Positions 11,161-36,943 of a stretch of 47,272 bases of DNA are shown here, piece by piece. The notes beneath the pieces were generated by a model. The model saw nothing but the letters and a program-made list of their open reading frames with translations. It did no database searches and had not been told where the DNA came from. Source of the stretch: Candidatus Peribacteraceae bacterium (GTDB lineage Bacteria; Patescibacteriota; Gracilibacteria; Peribacterales; Peribacteraceae); assembly GCA_028711445.1 (NCBI GenBank), contig JAQTSD010000008.1:1-47272 (forward strand). Direction: 5' to 3'. The translations under genes were made by a program, and so were the position numbers. Position 1 is the stretch's first letter, and each line of letters starts with the position of its first letter.

Positions 11161-14100
11161 ATGCCAGCGCCCGCACGCCGCCAGACATCCGCCACGGATT
11201 CCTTCGATGCCGTGGCACTCTCCATCGCCAGTCCCGAGGATATCCTCGCGTGGTCGCGCGGAGAGGTGACCAAACCTGAAACGGTGAACTATCGCACTCA
11301 GCGTGCGGAACCGGACGGGCTCTTCTGTGAACGTATCTTCGGGCCGACGAAGAATTTCCAGTGCTTCTGCGGCAAGTACAAGGGCGTGCGCTACTCCGGC
11401 GTCATTTGCGAGAAATGCGGTGTGGAGGTGACACGCTCGATCGTCCGCCGCGAGCGGATGGGGCACATCAACCTCGCCGTTCCCGTGACGCACATCTGGT
11501 TCCTTCGCAGCTCCCCCTCGCGCATCGGATTGCTCCTTGATCTGCCCATCAAGACGCTCGAGCAGATCGTCTACTTCGCCGCGTACATCGTCATTACCGT
11601 GGACGATTCCATCAAGCAGGAAGCGGAGAAGGAGCTCAATGCGGGGATGGAGACGCGCAGGACTCAGCTCAAGCGCGAGTACGAGGACGCGAGCAAGCAT
11701 CTGCAGGAGAGCAAGGCGACGCGTGCCCAGCTCGATGCGCTCGACAAGGAGTATGCCGATAAGATGGAGAACTTGAAGGCCAACCACCGCGAAGCGCTCG
11801 AGGACTTGCGCCATCTCAAGATCGGATCGGTCTTGAGTGAACTCAAGTTCCGGGAGATGAACATGAAGTTCGGACACGTGTTTCGCGCAGGAACGGGTGC
11901 CGAATCGCTTCGCGAGATCGTGGCCAACATTGATTTGAACCGCATGTTCGACGAGCTGCAGAAGGAGCGCGAGCAGTCGAGCGGCCAGAGGCTCAAGAAG
12001 ATCATGAAGCGCATCAAGCTGGTGAGCTCGCTCAAGAAAGCCGGCATCAAGCCGGAGTGGATGGTTACGACGCGCTTGCAGGTCATCCCGCCGGATCTGC
12101 GTCCAATGGTGCAGCTCGACGGCGGTCGCTTCGCTGCATCGGATTTGAATGATCTCTACCGTCGCGTCATCAATCGTAACAATCGCCTGAAGAAGCTCAT
12201 GAGCATCGGTGCGCCGGAGGTGATCTGCCGCAATGAGAAGCGCATGTTGCAGGAGGCGGTCGATACGCTGCTGAATAACTCCGCTCGCGCAGGCAAGACC
12301 CTCTTCACTGCGGGGGATCGGCGTAAGCTGAGGAGTCTCTCAGACATGCTCAAAGGCAAGCAGGGTCGCTTCCGCCAGAACCTGCTCGGAAAGCGTGTGG
12401 ACTATTCCGGCCGCTCCGTCATCGTCGTCGGACCGCATTTGAAGCTCAACCAGTGCGGCTTGCCGAAGGAGATGGCGATGAAGCTCTTCAAGCCGTTCGT
12501 GATCGGCCGCCTCATTCGCGAGGAGCTCGCGCACAACGTGAAGGGCGCCGAGCGTCTCGTGCAGGATGGCGGCAAGGAGGTGTGGGACATCCTCGAGGAT
12601 GTGATCAAAGACAAGTATGTCCTCTTGAATCGTGCGCCGACGCTCCACCGTCTTGGTATCCAGGCCTTCAAGCCGCGGCTTGTGGAAGGTCTCGCCATCC
12701 AGGTGCACCCGCTTGTTTGCGCCGCATTCAACGCAGACTTCGATGGAGATCAAATGGCTGTGCACGTACCGCTCTCCGAGAAGGCACAGAAGGAGGCGCA
12801 CGAGCTTATGTCTGCTTCGACGAACGTTCTCAAGCCTTCTGCGGGAGAACCGGTCATCAATCCGTCACAGGATATGGTGCTCGGCTGCTACTTCCTCACG
12901 AAGATGCATAACGGCAGAAAGGGGGAGGGGATGATCTTCAGTTCTCCCGAGGAAGCGATCATGGCACATGAACATGAAGTGGTGGATCTGCAGGCCAAGA
13001 TCTCCGTGCGCATTACGGACGCCGAAGGCAACTCGCAGATGCACGAGACGTCCGTTGGACGTCTGTATTTCCGTGAGATCGTGCCACCGGCGATGGGCTT
13101 CTACAACGAAACGCTCAAGAAGGGCTTGCTTTCGCGCATGATTCACCACGCTCTCGACGTCGTGGGGATCGAAGAGACCGTTGCCCTCGCGGATCGTATC
13201 AAGGACATCGGCTTCGCCTACGCGACGAAGTCAGGCTTCTCCATCGGTTCCACCGACATGCTCATTCCGAAAGAGCGCGAAGAGATGATCAAAAACGCCA
13301 ACGAGAGCGTACGCCAAATCAACAACTATTATTGGAAAGGTCTCATCACGGCGGACGAACGCTACAGTCATGCGATTCGCATCTGGTCGCAGACAAAGAA
13401 CGACGTTTCCGCCAAAATGATCGAGGAATTCCTCCGGCACGAAGAGAATCCGATTACGTACGTGATCGACTCCGGCGCCCGTGGCAACTGGGGACAGGTA
13501 ACCCAGCTCACCGGCATGAAAGGGTTGGTCGCCAACCCGTCGGGTCGTACGATCGAGCTGCCAATCCAGTCCAACCTCAAGGGCGGCTTCTCGGTTCTCG
13601 AATACTTCATCGCCACACACGGAGGACGCAAAGGGAAGTCCGACACTGCACTGAAAACCGCGGAAGCTGGCTACCTCACGCGCCGTCTTGTGGATGCCGT
13701 GCAGGACATTCTTATTCGTGAGGAAGATTGTGGCAGCAAGGAGGTGCACATGGTGAGCCGCTCGGAATCCGAGCAGATCGGTGAGAAATTCGAAAGCCGC
13801 ATCTTCGGCCGAACGCTTGCGCAAGATTTGTCCGTCAATGGGAAGGTGGTTGCGAAGCGCGATGACGAGATTGACAACCAGCTCTTGAAACTCATCAACG
13901 ATCATAAGATCGATGCCATTCCGGTCCGTTCCGTCATGACTTGCAAGACTCGCAAGGGCATTTGCGTGAAGTGTTACGGACGCGACCTTGGAGACAACGA
14001 TACGGTCCAGATCGGCACGCCGGTTGGCATCATCGCCGCGCAGTCCATCGGAGAGCCTGGCACGCAGCTCACTATGCGCACCTTCCACATGGGAGGAGTC

Positions 14101-15030
14101 GCCGAAGGCTCGGACATCACACAAGGTCTCACCCGTGTTGAGGAACTCTTCGAAGCACGCTCACCGCGCACCCCCGCCGTCCTCGCGGATATCGCAGGAA
14201 AGGTAAAGGTCACCCACTCGGGCGGTCGCACCTTCGTGAATATCATTGCCATGGAGCGGGGAGAGGACAATTACCGTATTCCTGCGGGATACGTTATCCA
14301 AGTAAAGAAAGGGCAGTCCGTTAAGGAGCGCACTGTGCTCGCCAAATCTTCCATGGACAAATCCACAGTGAAAGCTGCGGTGGCCGGCAAGGTTTCCGAA
14401 GCGGAAAACGGAGTCGTGAAAGTGCATCATGGGGAGATTCAAGAGCGTGATTACGAGTTCGGTCCGCGCGAGTCGCTCTACATCAGAACGGGTGACATGG
14501 TGGACGTTGGGCAACCGCTCAACGTTGGACACTTCAATCTGCAGGAGCTTCTCGAAAAGAAGGGGCCCTACGCCGTTCAGCGTTATATTGTGCACGAGGT
14601 ACAGCATATCTACGCATCACAGGGACAGACGATCAATGACAAACATCTTGAGATCATCGTTCGTAAAATGTTCTCCAAGGTCCGCATTCTTGACGCCGGT
14701 TCGACGCCGCTTGTGCCTGGCGAGACCGTGGATCTCGGTGATGTGATCTACGAGAACGATCACCTCAAGGCCAAACAGAAGCCTGCTACTTTCGAACCGC
14801 TGCTGCTCGGGATCACGCGTGCCGCGCTCGCCACGGACTCGTGGCTTTCCGGCGCATCCTTCCAGGAGACCATTCGAGTGCTTGTGGAAGCTGCGACCAC
14901 GCGCCGCGTCGACACGCTCCAGGGTTTGAAGGAGAATGTGATCATCGGCCGCCTCATTCCCACGGGCGAGGTCTATCGCGCCCGGTTCGTCGGAGGGGTG
15001 GAGGTGAAGGGGGGAGACAAGGAGGAGTGA
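11161..15030 (+). CDS. rpoC: RNA polymerase beta' subunit
   Basis: 1289 aa, full length. Beta' forms half of the polymerase active cleft. The N-terminal zinc site is C68xC70...C83xxC86. The catalytic magnesium loop NADFDGDQMAVH has Asp526, 528 and 530. The bridge-helix/trigger-loop part is represented by IGEPGTQLTMRTFHMGG, and the second zinc site includes CKTRKGICVKC. A helical insert of about 90 residues around 160-250 (charged, coiled-coil-like) lies between the clamp and the rest. The ATG at 11161 has no Shine-Dalgarno and follows a CCCCCCTTTCTCCC tract. Unusually, rpoB is not upstream: the preceding genes are the lipoprotein and zinc-ribbon genes. A terminator follows at 15058. Confidence 0.98.
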   Translation: MPAPARRQTSATDSFDAVALSIASPEDILAWSRGEVTKPETVNYRTQRAEPDGLFCERIFGPTKNFQCFCGKYKGVRYSGVICEKCGVEVTRSIVRRERMGHINLAVPVTHIWFLRSSPSRIGLLLDLPIKTLEQIVYFAAYIVITVDDSIKQEAEKELNAGMETRRTQLKREYEDASKHLQESKATRAQLDALDKEYADKMENLKANHREALEDLRHLKIGSVLSELKFREMNMKFGHVFRAGTGAESLREIVANIDLNRMFDELQKEREQSSGQRLKKIMKRIKLVSSLKKAGIKPEWMVTTRLQVIPPDLRPMVQLDGGRFAASDLNDLYRRVINRNNRLKKLMSIGAPEVICRNEKRMLQEAVDTLLNNSARAGKTLFTAGDRRKLRSLSDMLKGKQGRFRQNLLGKRVDYSGRSVIVVGPHLKLNQCGLPKEMAMKLFKPFVIGRLIREELAHNVKGAERLVQDGGKEVWDILEDVIKDKYVLLNRAPTLHRLGIQAFKPRLVEGLAIQVHPLVCAAFNADFDGDQMAVHVPLSEKAQKEAHELMSASTNVLKPSAGEPVINPSQDMVLGCYFLTKMHNGRKGEGMIFSSPEEAIMAHEHEVVDLQAKISVRITDAEGNSQMHETSVGRLYFREIVPPAMGFYNETLKKGLLSRMIHHALDVVGIEETVALADRIKDIGFAYATKSGFSIGSTDMLIPKEREEMIKNANESVRQINNYYWKGLITADERYSHAIRIWSQTKNDVSAKMIEEFLRHEENPITYVIDSGARGNWGQVTQLTGMKGLVANPSGRTIELPIQSNLKGGFSVLEYFIATHGGRKGKSDTALKTAEAGYLTRRLVDAVQDILIREEDCGSKEVHMVSRSESEQIGEKFESRIFGRTLAQDLSVNGKVVAKRDDEIDNQLLKLINDHKIDAIPVRSVMTCKTRKGICVKCYGRDLGDNDTVQIGTPVGIIAAQSIGEPGTQLTMRTFHMGGVAEGSDITQGLTRVEELFEARSPRTPAVLADIAGKVKVTHSGGRTFVNIIAMERGEDNYRIPAGYVIQVKKGQSVKERTVLAKSSMDKSTVKAAVAGKVSEAENGVVKVHHGEIQERDYEFGPRESLYIRTGDMVDVGQPLNVGHFNLQELLEKKGPYAVQRYIVHEVQHIYASQGQTINDKHLEIIVRKMFSKVRILDAGSTPLVPGETVDLGDVIYENDHLKAKQKPATFEPLLLGITRAALATDSWLSGASFQETIRVLVEAATTRRVDTLQGLKENVIIGRLIPTGEVYRARFVGGVEVKGGDKEE

Positions 15031-15057
15031 GATAAAATCACATGACAAAAGCCCGAG

Positions 15058-15084
15058 GACCTCAGCCAAATACTGAGGTCTTTT
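15058..15084 (+). terminator. Intrinsic terminator of rpoC
   Basis: GACCTCAG/CTGAGGTC stem with a 7-nt loop followed by TTTT, 28 nt after the stop. Confidence 0.85.
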
Positions 15085-15124
15085 GGCTTATCAATCACTG
15101 CCCCCTTGTTCATCCGGGGGGTCG

Positions 15125-15284
15125 GCGTGCCACGGGGGTGAAAGGGGAAAGCCCTGCGCAGTTTGCCGACGGGGAGGCACAGGGCCGAAGCGGAAGAGCT
15201 CTGGCGCGCCGGCGTTTTGCCCGCCCGAACGTACCGACGTTCGGTACGGGCGGGGCTTCACCTTTGTCGCCGGACAAAGGCGGA
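15125..15284 (+). repeat. Structured dispersed repeat, copy A
   Basis: Related to 33796-33955 (inverted) and 35471-35631. It shares ACGGGGGTGAAAGGGGAA, GAGGCACAGGGCC, AGAGCTCTGGCGCGCCGGC and the end hairpin ACCTTTGTC/GACAAAGG. It is the most diverged copy: the internal hairpin segment is shortened, and a separate GTACCGA/TCGGTAC palindrome within CCCGCCC...GGGCGGG (about 15219-15255) interrupts the region before the end hairpin. It fills most of the 360-bp gap between rpoC and the next gene; no gene is seen here. Confidence 0.75.
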
Positions 15285-15359: not shown

Positions 15360-15388
15360 TTGCTTCACCATGCCTTTTATGCTACAAT
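15360..15388 (+). promoter_or_regulatory. Promoter of the first small+large gene pair
   Basis: TTGCTT (15360-15365), 17 bp, extended -10 TGCTACAAT (TACAAT 15383-15388). The start codon follows within 4 nt (15393) or 16 nt (15405). Confidence 0.65.
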
Positions 15389-15392
15389 AGTG

Positions 15393-15728
15393 ATGAACAC
15401 ACACATGCAACCCACGATCGCCAATCCGGTGGCGCGTAGCCTCTATAACGCCCTTATGGGTGAGATCGAACCGGATCTGCGTTTGGATGCGACTGAGACT
15501 ACTGCGGCCAAACTGGCAGCGATGTCCCCCGAAGAGCGTCGAGTGCAGGTTGCTCGTTACGAGGAGGCGTATGCCACATTCCATGAGCGCTGGCCGAAAT
15601 TCGTGGAGGAATCGAAGGAGCGGGTAAAGCTGATCATGAAAATGTTCCGGTCATTCAAGGAGCATGAGGACGACAACACTGCGGATATTCTTGAGCAATC
15701 TCTCAACTCCTTTCCCTCGGCATCATGA
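15393..15728 (+). CDS. Small protein, first member of a two-gene module (module 1)
   Basis: 111 aa from the ATG at 15393; a second ATG at 15405 (MQPTIANP) is equally possible and fits the promoter better. A paralogue of the small protein at 17444: both have LYxAxMxxxEPxL near the N-terminus and ARYxxAxATF in the middle (SLYNALMGEIEPDL/ARYEEAYATF against WLYDAIMEVLEPEL/ARYDRAFATF). Mostly helical, acidic, without signal or membrane segment. Its stop overlaps the start of the following 540-aa gene (ATGA), which implies coupled translation and a fixed stoichiometry. Family not recognised. The arrangement suggests a chaperone, adaptor or antitoxin-like partner for the large protein, but this is only a guess from gene order. 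Confidence 0.8.
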   Translation: MNTHMQPTIANPVARSLYNALMGEIEPDLRLDATETTAAKLAAMSPEERRVQVARYEEAYATFHERWPKFVEESKERVKLIMKMFRSFKEHEDDNTADILEQSLNSFPSAS

Positions 15729-17347
15729 GTCACTTCACGTTCTCCTCATCGGAGCGAAGGCTTCTTCATAAGTTGACCGGAGGAGCCCCGGACAAGCTTC
15801 CCATCGTACGCGGTGACAAGGCGTTCGATCCGGAGTCGAAGACGTGGAAGGAACAGGAGGGCAAAGTCGTGTACAAGAGTAGAGAACAGCTGAAAGAGGA
15901 GTTTCGGGCAAAACTTCAGACCATCTTTGAACGCAATCGCAAGCGGGATTTTGCGAAGAATGCCAACGACGAGTGGGAGCAACATGCGAAGTATGCGTAT
16001 CTTCACAAATATCCTCCACAACCACGCGGCAACAAGTCTCGGGGGCAACATCTGCTCGACTGGAATTATCGTCACAGTCAGATGACCCACACGAAGCACG
16101 AGTTCATCTCCGGACAGATTGCCAGACAGGAAGCACAGGTTGCTGCGGATGGTAATAACTCCTTCGAGGATGCGATGAATACCCGATTCGGAGAGAATAA
16201 GGAGGGTAAGCCCCTTTTCGATGCTGCATTGGATGAGGTGGTGAATGGCATCATGGAGGACGAGAGGTTTCAGAGAGGCGTCGCAAGTTTCACCGAAGTG
16301 AGCGAATTGGCGTTCAAGCGTTTCGGAGAACAGCTCATGGATACGGACAAACTGTGGGCGAGTAACGACATTCCGCCCGAGTTCAAGAATCTCTGGAAGC
16401 GCGGGAACGACGGAAAGTATGCCCTCCGTGCACCCGGCATGTACGAGAACGGACGTCTGGTGAAGGATTCTTCGGACCGGTATGAGCGATTTACGGGAGG
16501 GAGGAAGGACAAAAATTATCTCTACCAGCATGAGGTCGATCAGCTGGATCCCAACGAATGGAAGCGTTTGGACGAGACGATCGATTTGCGCATCCGCACC
16601 TCCGTCGATGCGGATGGCGAGAAATTCGGCAAGAGGATTGCCGATGTCATCGGGTATGACGTCGAGAAGCCGAAGCTCGCTCCCTTTGCGCATTTCCGCG
16701 AAGTGAAGCATGAATCCCCGGCGATCCCCGGGCGCATCTTCGCGTTCTCCATCGACAAGGCGGCTGACCGGAAGGTGCCGGCCGATGAGCTCAAAACCAT
16801 CAACAAAGCGGGTCGGGAGGGGATCGTTGTCGTCGATACGGAGGGCAAGATCCTCAACGCCGTGCATTTCGAGCAGGTCGATCGGCGGATGGACTTCATG
16901 AAATCCGATCCGGAGGGGCAGCGATTCTTACGGATATTTCCAAGAATGGGAGATGCGGGAGCCGCTTTCGACGAACAGCAGTACGTCACGGACTTCAAAA
17001 CGAATCTGGCGTATCGGGATGCCGTACAGTACGCGGATCCCAAGCTTAAGATGGTGATGGACCGCTACGAGCGTCTCAGTAAGATCGACAAGACAATGGA
17101 AGACGTGATGACGAAGAATGGGCTGACCAAAGCGGATATCGAAGGAAGAGCTCATTTCGGTCTTGCCCCTGCGAACAGGAATGCATTGGTCGATGCGCTT
17201 GCGAAGCTGGCGAAGAAAACGTCTCCGCAGACCATCGGCGATATCATGCGGTACTTTGCCGTGGAATTGGGTACGGTGGGAGAGGCGGAAATGGGTCCGC
17301 CCAAGGGGGTTGGGACACTCGTGCACGAGAAGTATAGGATGCTGTAG
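15725..17347 (+). CDS. Large hypothetical protein, second member of module 1
   Basis: 540 aa, unrecognised. Highly charged, with no signal peptide or membrane helix, and helical in the N-terminal 200 residues (LKEEFRAKLQTIFERNRKRDFAKNA). There is a central region with mixed secondary structure (IFAFSIDKAADRKVP, EGIVVVDTEGKILNAVHFEQVD) and a helical C-terminus ending VHEKYRML. The start overlaps the small gene's stop by four bases. No enzyme motif was recognised. It lies between rpoC and rpsL, which are adjacent in many bacteria, so the module looks inserted into a conserved cluster. A secreted or effector role is not supported by any visible signal. Confidence 0.8.
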   Translation: MSHFTFSSSERRLLHKLTGGAPDKLPIVRGDKAFDPESKTWKEQEGKVVYKSREQLKEEFRAKLQTIFERNRKRDFAKNANDEWEQHAKYAYLHKYPPQPRGNKSRGQHLLDWNYRHSQMTHTKHEFISGQIARQEAQVAADGNNSFEDAMNTRFGENKEGKPLFDAALDEVVNGIMEDERFQRGVASFTEVSELAFKRFGEQLMDTDKLWASNDIPPEFKNLWKRGNDGKYALRAPGMYENGRLVKDSSDRYERFTGGRKDKNYLYQHEVDQLDPNEWKRLDETIDLRIRTSVDADGEKFGKRIADVIGYDVEKPKLAPFAHFREVKHESPAIPGRIFAFSIDKAADRKVPADELKTINKAGREGIVVVDTEGKILNAVHFEQVDRRMDFMKSDPEGQRFLRIFPRMGDAGAAFDEQQYVTDFKTNLAYRDAVQYADPKLKMVMDRYERLSKIDKTMEDVMTKNGLTKADIEGRAHFGLAPANRNALVDALAKLAKKTSPQTIGDIMRYFAVELGTVGEAEMGPPKGVGTLVHEKYRML

Positions 17348-17407
17348 ATATCTTTCTGAGCGCTCTTCGAAGCCGTTTCGGAGCTGTTTCGAGGAGGCCG
17401 AAATTCC

Positions 17408-17436
17408 TTCTCAAGGGGGCAGAAAAGTGCTATACT
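17408..17436 (+). promoter_or_regulatory. Promoter of the second small+large gene pair
   Basis: TTCTCA (17408-17413), 17 bp, extended -10 TGCTATACT (TATACT 17431-17436). The ATG at 17444 is 7 nt after the -10 box, consistent with a leaderless mRNA. Confidence 0.65.
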
Positions 17437-17443
17437 ATTTATG

Positions 17444-17782
17444 ATGAAACATACATCAACACAGAGTGCCGCGATGAAGGAAGGATGGCTCTATGATGCG
17501 ATCATGGAGGTGCTCGAACCGGAGCTGATGTCACAGTCCATCGAGACACTGGATGGCACGTACCGAAGCGAGTCTGCAGAGGCGCATACCGAGCGCATGG
17601 CGCGCTACGATCGGGCGTTTGCGACGTTCGATGACGTACTCACGTCTCTCGGGGCCGACATGATTGAGAAAACGCGTGCACAGGGGCGTGGCAAGAAAGC
17701 GGCTGTGCGCAAGCAGGAGGAGAAAGAGCGTGGGGCATCCCTTACGAAGCTGGAACAAGATCTCGATTCCTCTCTCTCCTGA
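17444..17782 (+). CDS. Small protein, first member of a two-gene module (module 2)
   Basis: 112 aa, a paralogue of the small protein of module 1 (shared LYxAxMxxxEPxL and ARYxxAxATF). The C-terminal half is more basic (KTRAQGRGKKAAVRKQEEKE). The ATG at 17444 is chosen because it matches the expected transcription start; an adjacent ATG lies at 17441. The stop TGA shares its last base with the ATG of the 593-aa gene (TGATG), so the partner proteins are translationally coupled, just as in module 1. The cognate large proteins show no clear similarity to each other, which suggests the small protein is the conserved part of the system. Function unknown. Confidence 0.8.
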   Translation: MKHTSTQSAAMKEGWLYDAIMEVLEPELMSQSIETLDGTYRSESAEAHTERMARYDRAFATFDDVLTSLGADMIEKTRAQGRGKKAAVRKQEEKERGASLTKLEQDLDSSLS

Positions 17783-19563
17783 TGCGCTCTGAACTGCTCC
17801 ATACGTTCGGCTGGATGTTCTCAGATTCTCTCTTCCGCGAAGCGCGGATGCTGCGGGAAGTGCCTGCAGAGGGTCCGAAGAATGCTGCGGAGAAAGCGGA
17901 GGCGGATGACATCATGGATCGTTATCGCAAGCACAGCACGGAAGCGAGGAGAGTGGAGAAGCGATTGGATGATCTGCGAAGCGCCCATCCAGATGATCCC
18001 GAGCTTGGCCGCGAGCGCGTGAAAGGGGAAGCAAGGAGACTGGCTTCGGAAAGATCATTCTCGAGGAATTTCTCGCATCTTGGCTATCCGGAAAACCTGA
18101 CGGACAAGTACGTCACGAACATGGCTCGTATACATAATATTACGTTCGGCTTGAGAGGGACGAGTCTCATCGTCACGCGGGGGACGTTGGATGAGGTCAA
18201 TGGCGCTCTGGATGATATGCAGGCGCTCACGATTGAGTTTAAGAAGAGAGGCGTTCAGAGGGTCGAGAGCGCATACGGCGCAGTAACACCGCTCAATCGC
18301 GGACAGCGCACGATCGTTACCATCGATGAGCATAACCGACAGTACGTCGAACGGGTGAAGGAAGCGGAATTGGGAGACATGGTTATCAAGGCGCTCACAG
18401 ATTGCCGCGATCATTTTACGAAGTACGACGGTGCCAATTTCCGCAACTCCGTAAGCGATCCTACGTGGATAGCGGACAATCCGGAGCGTTATCGCGAGGT
18501 GGCCATGCAGGCGCTCAAGCAGGATCCGGAGAATATCAAGTACTTCGATAGGACCGTTTTCCCGAAAGCCGATATCAATCGGCTCATTACTCAGCAGTTG
18601 TCTCGGGATTCAGGTTTCATCCTTCGTGTGCCAGATGAATGGAGAACGGAGAATGCCGATGACTATAAGGTCGCGGTGCTGAGGTATGCCATGCAGACAG
18701 GTGATCCGGCGATATTGGATGCGTTACATCCTCGGGATTGGCCGTCCGATGATCGGGCCTTGGATAGTGTTATCGAAGCTATTGTTGCGAAAGATCCCTC
18801 GCTCGTTGATCAGTTGGCAACACGCTGCAAGTTCTACGTGGACCAAAAGAGAGGCATGGGCCATGTCCTGCGGGAACTTCTGACGAAGGATGCGGTAGTG
18901 AAGAATGAAAATATTCTCGACATGGTGATCGGGAAAAGGATGACTTTCGAGGGTATCGATGGTGGTTATGGCGATGCATTTGAGGATGCGCTGAAGAGAA
19001 TTTATGAAAGGCAGCCTGCGGCGGCCGTGCGGTATCTCATGTTCTTCCCACAGGAGAGACTGTCCGAGAAGGGCGACGAGGAGATCCGGCAGTTCTTCGA
19101 AAAGATTGCCATGGCCAATCCGACGATCATGCAGCGGTACATCGTCGATCATGACCCGGGGAAGGTTCTGAGGAAGTTCCCAGCGCTCTTGCGGTTCGCC
19201 CCGGTCGATCTGCAAGGCCGATTTGTCGTGACAAGGGAGCTTGCGAAGACGAGTCCGTGGATTTTGTTCAACTTAAATGACACACTGAAAAACACGATTG
19301 AGAACCCGACTGCTGACAAGGAGAAAGACAATCGTGACGATTACAGGCAATTGGTGCTGAAGGCATTCGATGGTGCCAATGCATCGACGGATTTCGAGAC
19401 GATGTGCGGTCTCTTTGAGAACCAGGCAGTGTACCTCAAGAGAGAATTACCGAACGTATGGAGAGAGATCAGAACGAAAGTCTGGGACAAAGCGGTTCAA
19501 AAATGGAATACGCCGGCACAGACAAAAGCAATGGGAGGGCTATACAGAAAGCATAGTCTGTGA
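17782..19563 (+). CDS. Large alpha-helical repeat protein, second member of module 2
   Basis: 593 aa. From about residue 230 to 560 it is built of degenerate helical repeats of 35-45 residues with the pattern (Y/A)xxVAxxALKxDPxxIxxFD. Examples are YREVAMQALKQDPENIKYFD, DSVIEAIVAKDPSLVDQL, EDALKRIYERQPAAAVRYL and RQFFEKIAMANPTIMQRYI. The pattern resembles DUF4116-type or HEAT-like solenoids; I cannot confirm the family. The N-terminal 180 residues are charged and helical (residues 23-75 likely coiled). No signal peptide, membrane segment or catalytic motif. The start shares one base with the upstream small gene's stop. A solenoid would suit protein-protein binding. It ends about 120 nt before rpsL. 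Confidence 0.78.
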   Translation: MRSELLHTFGWMFSDSLFREARMLREVPAEGPKNAAEKAEADDIMDRYRKHSTEARRVEKRLDDLRSAHPDDPELGRERVKGEARRLASERSFSRNFSHLGYPENLTDKYVTNMARIHNITFGLRGTSLIVTRGTLDEVNGALDDMQALTIEFKKRGVQRVESAYGAVTPLNRGQRTIVTIDEHNRQYVERVKEAELGDMVIKALTDCRDHFTKYDGANFRNSVSDPTWIADNPERYREVAMQALKQDPENIKYFDRTVFPKADINRLITQQLSRDSGFILRVPDEWRTENADDYKVAVLRYAMQTGDPAILDALHPRDWPSDDRALDSVIEAIVAKDPSLVDQLATRCKFYVDQKRGMGHVLRELLTKDAVVKNENILDMVIGKRMTFEGIDGGYGDAFEDALKRIYERQPAAAVRYLMFFPQERLSEKGDEEIRQFFEKIAMANPTIMQRYIVDHDPGKVLRKFPALLRFAPVDLQGRFVVTRELAKTSPWILFNLNDTLKNTIENPTADKEKDNRDDYRQLVLKAFDGANASTDFETMCGLFENQAVYLKRELPNVWREIRTKVWDKAVQKWNTPAQTKAMGGLYRKHSL

Positions 19564-19687: not shown

Positions 19688-20110
19688 ATGCCAACGATCA
19701 ATCAGCTCATCCGCCGGCCACGACACGCCAAGGTCCGCAAGTCCAAGGCACCTGCGCTGCAGTACACATGGAACGCGCTTAACATGCGTGCGGTCCCATT
19801 GCCCGGCGGTGCGCCCTTCAAACGCGGCGTATGTATCAAAGTGACCACGATGACGCCCAAGAAGCCAAATTCCGCTCTGCGTAAGATCGCCCGCGTGCGT
19901 CTCGTGAACGGTCACGAGGTGAAGGCGTACATTATGGGAGAGGGGCACAACTTGCAGGAACACTCCGTAGTGCTCGTGCGTGGCGGCCGCGTGAAAGATC
20001 TTCCGGGCGTGCGTTACCACATCGTCCGCGGCATCCTCGACACGGAGGGCGTGCAGAACCGCAAGCAGGGTCGCAGCCGTTACGGTGCCAAACGGCCGAA
20101 AGCTTCTTAA
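19688..20110 (+). CDS. rpsL: 30S ribosomal protein S12
   Basis: 140 aa. S12 lies at the decoding centre. Seen: [11 protein letters not shown] at the start, [37 protein letters not shown] and the basic [14 protein letters not shown] tail. The spacer between APAL and KRGVC is longer than in E. coli but matches the length seen in Firmicutes S12, so it is not unusual. GAGGGGAGA provides a Shine-Dalgarno. It is first in rpsL-rpsG, with rpoC upstream as in many bacteria, though here separated from rpoC by two extra gene pairs. Confidence 0.98.
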
Positions 20111-35743: not shown

Positions 35744-36943
35744 ATGTCCACGCAACGCACCTCGGCGCTTCTCCTTGCAGTCTTTGTGGCCTTTGCACTG
35801 GCTGCGCCTGCTTTGGCCGCCTATTACCCGGATACTGCCGGGACCAAGTACGATGCGGGCTTCGCGCACCTCACGGAGAAGGGGATTGTTCAAGGGTACA
35901 GTGACGGGAACGGACGACCCGAAGCAGCCATCAATCGTGCGGAAGCGCTCAAGATTATTCTCGGGCTCAAAGATCCCGCCCGTGTGAAGAAGTTCCAGAC
36001 AAATATGCCGCCGCTGCCACTTTTTTCTGATATCGACCAGCGTGCGTGGTACGCACCGTACGTGGAGGCGGCCTTCGAGACACGCATGATCACGGGTTAT
36101 CCGGATCGCACATTTCGACCGGGGAATTATCTTACGGTCGAAGAAGCGGTAACGATGTTACTTCGGGCGTACGGATCCCAGGGGGTGCAGGGTGCCGCTC
36201 AGCTGTCGCCGTATATCCAGAATGAAGATGGTGAGTGGTTCACACCGTTCATCAATGCGGCGGTCGGCAAGAATCTCGTGATGCACAGCGGGCGTCTCGA
36301 ACTGGGGAGCACGATCACGCGCGGCAGTTTCTTCGATATGGCCTATCGCATCGATGATATCCAGTCGAAAGGGCTGGTGGCGTTTCAGGGGACGGAACCA
36401 TCTTCCGCTGTCATGAGTAACAACCAGACCACCGTCATTTCCATGACCAGTCCGGCGATCCGCGCGCCGCAACCGGCAAATCTTGCAGGTTCATCGGAGC
36501 GGTACTTCGCTATCAGCATGCCCACACTCGGTATCAGTGATCTCACCGTCACACATCCGACGGACCCCTTTAGCAAGGATGGCATTCTTCAGCCGCTTAA
36601 CTTCGGTGTTGGTCACCTCTTCGGCTATCCGGGCGGAGGAGGGAAGATTATGATTTATGGCCATTCCAGCGGTTATCCGTGGGATGTCTCGCAATTCACG
36701 AAGATCTTTCGCAAGGTGAATCAGCTGAAGGTCGGGGATCGTATCTCCGTTGCATACAACGGTACACTCTATGGATATGAGGTGTCGTACAGTCAGACGG
36801 TTCTGGCCGATGATACCAGTCCTTTCAAGGATGACGGACGCGGGGAGGAGCTTATCCTCTACACTTGCTGGCCACCCGATTCGATCACACAGCGCTACTT
36901 GGTTCACGCGCTTCCTGTGAGCTCGGCTGTTGCAGTGCGGTAG
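35744..36943 (+). CDS. Secreted SLH-domain protein with C-terminal sortase domain
   Basis: 399 aa. A signal peptide (residues 1-26, ending APALA-AYYP) is followed by three S-layer-homology-type units (about 28-80, 93-150, 160-210; FSDIDQRAWYAPYVEAAFETRMITGYPDRTFRPG is typical). A linker of about 45 residues leads to a sortase fold (250-395) with catalytic His307 (MIYGHSSG), Cys375 (ILYTCWPP) and Arg384 (ITQRYLV). Sortases join proteins to the wall or into pili; SLH units bind wall polymers. The fusion would hold the transpeptidase at the wall by SLH contacts instead of by a membrane anchor. No LPxTG substrates were recognised in the window. A terminator follows at 36973. Confidence 0.9.
   Translation: MSTQRTSALLLAVFVAFALAAPALAAYYPDTAGTKYDAGFAHLTEKGIVQGYSDGNGRPEAAINRAEALKIILGLKDPARVKKFQTNMPPLPLFSDIDQRAWYAPYVEAAFETRMITGYPDRTFRPGNYLTVEEAVTMLLRAYGSQGVQGAAQLSPYIQNEDGEWFTPFINAAVGKNLVMHSGRLELGSTITRGSFFDMAYRIDDIQSKGLVAFQGTEPSSAVMSNNQTTVISMTSPAIRAPQPANLAGSSERYFAISMPTLGISDLTVTHPTDPFSKDGILQPLNFGVGHLFGYPGGGGKIMIYGHSSGYPWDVSQFTKIFRKVNQLKVGDRISVAYNGTLYGYEVSYSQTVLADDTSPFKDDGRGEELILYTCWPPDSITQRYLVHALPVSSAVAVR

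Follow-up and report, generated by a model that had tools for sequence, protein, structure and literature searches.

Two overlapping gene pairs between rpoC and rpsL belong to a group of fast-evolving two-gene modules with a common N-terminal tag in Peribacteria

The 47,272-nucleotide (nt) stretch of Candidatus Peribacteraceae DNA analyzed here (the window; contig JAQTSD010000008.1) carries two pairs of overlapping genes between rpoC (11161–15030) and rpsL (19688–20110), each a small gene followed by a large one. We show that both pairs are members of a group of fast-evolving two-gene modules in one Peribacteria family, in which a conserved small protein is encoded next to a large protein that has a variable body and, usually, a short N-terminal tag. 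The window corresponds to contig C11 in a genome of 1.25 Mb (99.7% complete). Its closest named relative is a sister species, Candidatus Peribacteria bacterium UBA11694 (DMXL01000005.1; 84% identity for the small protein of the second pair), placed by NCBI in the class Candidatus Peribacteria of Candidatus Peregrinibacteriota.

Both pairs are encoded on the + strand and lie, with their ATGA and TGATG overlaps, where an earlier note on this DNA had placed them. Small partner 1 (open reading frame (ORF) 15405–15728; 107 amino acids (aa), or 111 aa if translation starts at 15393) shares the ATGA at 15725–15728 with large protein 1 (15725–17347; 540 aa), an arrangement that suggests translational coupling. 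Small partner 2 (17444–17782; 112 aa) ends, and large protein 2 (17782–19563; 593 aa) starts, at 17782 within the TGATG at 17780–17784. The start codons of the small genes are uncertain, with 17441 and 17474 as alternatives for the second. As the note proposed, the small proteins are paralogs (29% identity over 94 columns, E 2e-8, in a single blastp comparison), and LYxAxMxxxEPxL and ARYxxAxATF are present in them. Its description of the large proteins as unrelated applies to their bodies, for which blastp finds no relation, but not to their first ~25 residues, which resemble each other through the tag: MSHFTFSSSERRLLHKLTGGAP in large 1 (15725–15790) and MRSELLHTFGWMFSDSLFREARMLREVP in large 2 (17782–17865). 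The helical-repeat solenoid seen in large 2 is partly borne out by a match to DUF4116 (PF13475; E 9e-4), which at 19.1 bits stays below the Pfam cut-off of 24.9. Measured against the sister species, the ratio of nonsynonymous to synonymous substitution rates (dN/dS) is 0.067 for small 1, 0.148 for large 1, 0.142 for small 2 and 0.228 for large 2, compared with 0.014–0.022 for rpoC, rpsL and rpsG. All four pair genes are under purifying selection and are therefore real genes, constrained but fast-evolving.

The same genome holds a third pair, behind mfd on contig C23 (L003/L005). Small 2 as the sole query first revealed small 1 and this third copy (E 7e-5 and 0.002) and also gave matches at E 1 or better in 32 of 59 relatives. 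Profile A1, built from 28 small proteins, matches small 1, small 2 and the third copy at E 3e-25, 9e-31 and 8.5e-29; A1 and the tag profile A4 include the window sequences, so that their E-values for the window are matches by construction. Matches to A1 occur in 67 of the 74 genomes of the bacterial family, with one to five copies per genome. The small family is essentially absent outside it: among 288 genomes drawn class-wide, only five from other families match A1 at E 0.01 or better, the best at 3.6e-5. We followed up 139 matches, among those listed in the family-level and class-level A1 searches. The consensus core reads YDxLMxxIEPELxxxxxPxLxEKYxxETxExxxxRxxRYxxAFxxYD, and the proteins are mostly acidic (median net charge -6).

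Searches with the small proteins returned little. Pfam gave scattered weak matches for the two window proteins, none of them WXG100; NCBIfam likewise gave weak scattered matches for the family, ESAT6_2 being matched by 1 of 28 members (E 0.008), and no conserved WXG was seen in the alignment. Three PHROGs families, without known function, were each matched by 1 of the 28 members at E 0.003 or weaker. A profile search of solved structures with the small family gave a weak best match (E 0.04), and further such searches with alignments A6 (15 of 16 in-frame joined rows plus 87 of 140 small-only rows), A8, A10 (8 of the 20 members of the largest cluster of large-protein bodies) and A15 were also weak (best E 0.026, many coiled coils). 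We modeled the small protein plus tag of one pair, a natural in-frame read-through (L090), with AlphaFold2 and 15 paired rows. The small part (residues 1–108) is predicted as two short helices and a long one that starts at residue 44, with predicted local distance difference test (pLDDT) scores of 92–98 by block. Fold searches with this model found nothing convincing (Foldseek best E 4.7 in PDB and 0.9 in BFVD), and the best VIA-align Z, 5.8, falls among the values that this tool describes as common with helical models. A phage origin was considered and is unsupported by PHROGs and the fold searches; viral contigs were not scanned.

We then examined the ORF behind each small gene in 135 fetched regions, taking the longest one whose start lay between -45 and +200 nt. 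Together, loci and window gave 158 small ORFs, or 156 rows without one off-contig case and one duplicate, and 153 rows after dropping a split hit, a contig end and a doubtful hit from another family (G037). A close same-strand ORF follows in 147 of the 153 cases, 137 of them at -11 to +30 nt; six small genes, named by eye, stand alone. The following ORF is large and tagged in 127 cases and has no recognized tag in 20, of which 19 are likewise within -11 to +30 nt. The tag call for the 127 used a profile built partly from the same rows together with a strict pattern, so that the independent figure is the 113 of 155 given below. Among the tagged pairs, 118 of 127 are at an offset of -11 to +30 nt and 63 overlap, the commonest offset being -4 (41 of 127), with -1 in 13. 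The tagged ORFs have a median length of 603 aa and a maximum of 2,559 aa, some being cut by contig ends. The modular arrangement of a conserved small and a variable large partner that had been suggested for the window is thus confirmed, and it is wider than proposed; homologs that occur alone, which the note had named as a refuting case, are these six of 153 copies. In one genus (L045, L150, L153) a solitary small gene precedes carA, and L045 also has a tagged 422-aa protein upstream of that gene.

The tag consists of an F/H/R/S-rich stretch, then [RK]-E-x-R-L-[IL]-[FHY], then a P/E/A-rich stretch. When 127 rows picked for the E-x-R motif are aligned on it, the next positions are L/M/F in 90%, I/L/C/V in 89% and F/H/Y in 60%; R/K precedes it in 47%, with F/H/R/S-rich residues before the motif and P/G/A/E-rich ones after it. 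Counting ORFs of at least 30 aa, the strict motif E-x-R-[LMF]-[ILVACTF] occurs within the first 40 residues of 113 of 155 proteins, versus 15 of 2,253 internal 40-mers. A slightly wider pattern is found in 62 of 3,120 shuffled N-termini and in seven of 261 flanking genes, several of which look like additional true tags. The position of the motif is variable (2 to 27 in nearly all rows), the mean charge of the tag is +1.3, and 22% of its residues are F/H/W/Y. Profile A4, made from 96 of 98 selected N-termini, matches the tags of large 1 and large 2 at E 4e-4 and 1.2e-6. No signal peptides were noticed when the N-termini were read by eye, and a transmembrane-like stretch occurs in 2 of 133 complete large proteins.

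While the tag persists, the large partners fall into 94 blastp clusters. We ran Pfam at E 0.001 on 139 of 141 selected large proteins of at least 140 aa (two were dropped): 13 families were matched among 93 proteins and six among 46, each in one or two members. These matches are mainly coiled coils; the best are DUF4116, which in L053 exceeds the Pfam cut-off (31.4 versus 24.9 bits), InPase (PF18823; E 1.6e-15) and DnaJ (E 1.7e-9), and there is one weak ATPase match. InPase, the strongest domain match of the set and a domain of polyvalent proteins in phages and mobile elements, was found in one large partner in alignment A2. The J domain occupies residues 1120–1169, at the C-terminus of a tagged large protein in the rpoC slot (L141:4474-7989, - strand). 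Profile comparison joins three body clusters that blastp keeps apart and that come mostly from the mfd slot (E 1e-10, 3e-13 and 3e-8), although coiled-coil-like parts may inflate the first two links and the third spans 24 columns only. An AlphaFold2 model of large 1 (six rows) had a mean pLDDT of 47, too low for a fold search.

The tag is not confined to partners of the small family. A4 also finds tagged proteins that no small-family member precedes, and many of these lie -8 to +25 nt behind short genes of other kinds: a 124–134-aa pair (L177, L185), a ~100-aa pair (L178, L183), others in L181, L188, L234 and L174, and a second one in L177. Elsewhere the preceding gene encodes an apparent two-transmembrane membrane protein, judged by eye (L180, L184, L191, L226, L241). 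In all of these except L184 the stop codon of this likely two-transmembrane protein (~165–217 aa) abuts the tagged ATG, in two families of the class; three of the abutting proteins had no convincing Pfam match, that of L226 weakly resembling DUF5673 and VirB3. Larger neighbors occur as well. A 750–850-aa protein comes before the tagged one in L179, L189, L242 and L243; with the window's own genome (L173:1292-4783) added to these four, five genomes have an untagged protein of 449–849 aa directly ahead of a tagged one of at least 713 aa. In the window's genome, a 449-aa ORF on contig C4 precedes a further tagged protein, which is 713 aa long where the contig ends and is a weak A4 match (E 0.05); no small-family member was found there. 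Some tagged proteins have no close upstream gene (e.g., L225, L228, L231). To the eye, a 580-aa protein upstream of the tagged ORF in L186 shows a C...H...D pattern resembling that of a transglutaminase or papain-like fold. Pfam gave nothing convincing for ten non-family partners (best E 0.004). Outside the small family, 36 tagged proteins (35,054 aa) had no Pfam match at E 0.001, and one of them matches a PHROG without known function.

At E 0.001 or better the tag was found in 60 of the 288 class genomes, 13 of them in five other families. In all 13 at least one match was read, and the tag follows closely on an initial methionine, as in MLNPMFKSWGFKENRLIFMAGTTPEVA of L226. A phmmer search matches the tag of large 2 to the one in L236, a locus of another family (E 3e-5). 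In a phylum-wide draw of 379 genomes, 27 match the tag at 0.003 or better, 25 of them from the class; the remaining two matches, to ORFs of 111 and 76 aa, are at about chance level.

About half of the pair copies are kept in recurring genomic slots. The slot genes were recognized by eye from clustered flanking ORFs, and those checked with NCBIfam are rpoC, rpsL, rpsG and fusA of the window, whose names it confirms, one mfd (L003) and one carA (L150). Of the 156 rows, 43 (39 genomes) are behind mfd, 11 probably behind mfd, 15 (13 genomes of eight genera) behind rpoC and 12 before carA, with 75 elsewhere or unassigned. For the mfd, rpoC and carA labels, a FastTree tree built from 154 small proteins requires 4, 6 and 6 changes, versus shuffled means of 21.5, 13.8 and 11.2; with few columns and many weak forks, the tree speaks for clustering by slot, not for an exact history. 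This clustering suggests long retention of the pairs.

The large proteins of the window add to this picture. Large 1 is a remote homolog of large proteins in four genomes of three other genera (L159, L104, L168 and L097; hhalign 94%, E 1.4e-7). An hmmsearch with those four recovers large 1 at E 3e-5 and its UBA11694 counterpart at 9e-6, and searching the 74 genomes with a profile of all six added no member. Two of these relatives (L159, L168) are in the rpoC slot, L097 is near carA and L104 is unassigned, so that the block seems to have changed place as well. Two pairs stand in tandem in L168 and L097, as in the window; L104 has two tandem small genes, the second large ORF being cut by the contig end. 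For large 2 a full-length homolog was found only in UBA11694 among the loci searched. Neither a relation to the large-1 family nor remote homology to the second large protein of other genera's tandem pairs (hhalign 0.2%) was found for it. We therefore reject the idea that the two pairs were recently gained as a block, given the presence of the small family in most genomes of its bacterial family, the recurring slots, the clustering by slot and the remote relatives of large 1. Ordinary vertical inheritance describes the bacterial family but not the phylum, outside this family the small proteins being essentially missing.

What might such modules do? In the reading that we favor, a common cell component recognizes the tag as a signal for sorting or docking. 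The small protein, made just before the large one and in coupled amounts, would hold the tag end of its partner and then hand it over; the bodies would be the cargo that performs the actual work, and would change quickly in response to changes in the partners they meet, whether host cells, phages or other proteins. Such cargo could be bound for export, possibly via a machine like the type IV secretion system (T4SS), or for a place inside the cell. Coupled expression, a conserved partner that is mostly acidic, a basic and aromatic tag that outlives the body, few transmembrane segments and varied partners are most simply explained by a tag read by a shared component. We put the chance of this reading, with the small protein as a dedicated adaptor or chaperone, at about even. 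The wider proposal is tentative, and we hold it to be somewhat improbable: an undescribed sorting or export pathway of a Patescibacteria class, with a ~25-residue signal [RK]-E-x-R-L-[IL]-[FHY] in an F/H/R-rich context and several gene-coupled adaptor families, which would carry mainly large cargo without recognizable domains, possibly into the cells that these bacteria live on. Across 122 pairs, covariation between small protein and tag exceeded all 60 of 60 within-slot shuffles, with a small effect.

A number of observations weigh against this reading. Relatedness alone could produce the covariation just described. The earlier note had looked to a predicted interface within a pair; in the one pair modeled, the AlphaFold2 tag stays undocked (pLDDT about 60–73), the 15 paired rows being too few to decide. 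Several tagged proteins lack a short partner, so that the tag is not solely a docking site for this small family, and seven of the other small partners, compared jointly with the family, show no detectable relation to it (hhalign 12%). The 20 followers without a recognized tag and the six solitary small genes also fit poorly. The remaining points concern the T4SS. In favor of export by this route, a VirB4-like ATPase is found in 70 of the 74 family genomes, including the window's, at E 1e-5 or better, but all of its scores are below the NCBI cut-off, and seven of 14 control genomes match too. In three genomes (G006, G009, G059) VirB4 is present while both the small family and a detected tag are missing, so T4SS presence does not track the tag, and we rejected it as a marker because it does not discriminate. 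No tag was seen at the three VirB4 loci viewed, and the genes flanking the pairs were clustered but not systematically annotated. Finally, a T4SS-like positive charge at the C-termini is not clear (mean -0.14 versus -0.65 internally, n = 103) and is not convincing as a sign of T4SS export. In the window's genome, contig C19 carries a VirB4-like ATPase (G000:C19:9999-11564) and, at 35853-36398, a second region that matches the N-terminal portion of this model more weakly.

The main rival is an intracellular scaffold, which we rate as rather unlikely. Here the tag would fasten large proteins made of coiled coils or helical repeats to some conserved complex of the membrane or core (pole, division site or envelope base), the small protein would be a structural subunit, and fast evolution would mirror loose constraint on scaffold bodies. 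This suits the clustering of small proteins by slot, as expected under vertical inheritance, and agrees with the few Pfam matches of the 139 large proteins being mainly coiled coils and DUF4116 repeats, plus one C-terminal J domain, with the largely coiled-coil-like links among the three body clusters, and with the likely membrane protein that abuts tagged genes in four loci. Harder to accommodate are sequence-unrelated bodies within one genome and a body that matches an enzyme family (InPase), and no cytoskeletal or division gene was noticed nearby, the flanking genes not having been annotated systematically. Less probable still is the delivery of effectors to other cells by a T4SS-like machine, for which the small protein would serve as a secretion chaperone of the kind found with the type III secretion system (T3SS). 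A small, mostly acidic protein encoded upstream of a large cargo, a common N-terminal signal, hardly any transmembrane segments, fast-changing bodies and the prevalence of the VirB4-like ATPase all suit this idea. It is at odds, however, with the lack of Pfam matches at E 0.001 in all 36 tagged proteins outside the small family, with the handful of matches among the 139 large partners, of which the enzyme-like ones are InPase and the weak ATPase, with slots that look vertically inherited and with a tag that the T4SS does not track; moreover, known T4SS signals are mostly C-terminal.

Two other explanations appear very improbable to us, and about equally so. Toxin–antitoxin or effector–immunity pairs, which the note had also raised, would share the two overlapping genes, small one first, and the fast evolution, but here it is the small partner that is conserved and the large one that varies, reaching the maximum length given above. 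No toxin family is among the Pfam matches listed, and PADLOC, run on six proteins of three pairs, reported only small 1 as a weak match to MukB-like JetC (E 0.0015), which leaves both the antitoxin/toxin suggestion and a role in defense unsupported; clustering by slot, with the long retention that it suggests, also speaks against it. The adaptor/effector and chaperone/client suggestions of the note are still candidates. Alternatively, the tag could act at the level of RNA or translation start, through coupling or as a leader peptide, and not as a protein signal. In most pairs it does sit at a coupled start codon, yet it is the residues that are conserved, with a variable length before the motif, and the tag is also found where no upstream gene is close (L225, L228 and L231, as above).

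Several known systems invite comparison with tagged cargo and its small partner. In type III class I chaperone–effector pairs a small acidic protein is encoded just upstream of a large protein with an N-terminal signal. The modules resemble these in having a small acidic protein upstream and tagged large proteins with mutually unrelated bodies. They differ in the one long helix predicted for the small protein, which has no convincing match among solved structures, in the use of one small family for very many bodies and in the recurrence of the E-x-R-L residues across families of the class; no T3SS was found here, and none was looked for. WXG100/LXG type VII modules similarly place a ~100-aa helical protein beside a large variable one, but the tag is ~25 aa long and not an LXG domain, and a conserved WXG is lacking. 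Encapsulin and microcompartment cargo-loading peptides are likewise short terminal peptides common to unrelated proteins; unlike such cargo, most pairs come with a small partner of their own (no search for shell proteins was made). As for DUF4116, the match in large 2 is weak while that in L053 passes the cut-off. T4SS are reported across most Patescibacteria classes (PMC12102498); a VirB4-like ATPase occurs here too, but no link to the pairs was seen.

Each pair in the window had been credited with its own extended -10 promoter. Both boxes are present, TGCTACAAT ahead of pair 1 (15380–15388, + strand) and TGCTATACT ahead of pair 2 (17428–17436), but a consensus scan calls only the latter, as part of a promoter-like site on the + strand (TTCTCA-17-TATACT with TG; 17408–17436), and its total of three sites equals what shuffles give (mean 2.7). 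Across the rows, TGnTAnnnT lies at most 80 nt upstream of the chosen small-gene start in 99 of 158, versus 16 of 158 with one shuffle each. Between rpoC and pair 1 there is a terminator-like inverted repeat (15049–15089, + strand; 17-nt arms, 82% complementary), for which the + strand terminator scan was negative. Nested GC-rich inverted repeats lie between this repeat and pair 1 (15170–15280).

The family of pairs is apparently undescribed: the literature searched contained nothing describing the tag or the small family, most subscription papers and all preprints being outside its coverage. We call it new because small family and tag have no convincing match in Pfam, NCBIfam, PHROGs, PADLOC or solved structures; novelty thus rests on absent matches, and the mechanism may prove to be of a known kind. 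One short signal ties together many unannotated, fast-evolving proteins of uncultured bacteria, and further members can be sought with it. Should the tag prove to be a signal for delivery or sorting, it would reveal how Peribacteria-like cells position, or send out, proteins whose sequence gives no clue to their function, and would make their interaction with other cells testable through a peptide and its small partner.

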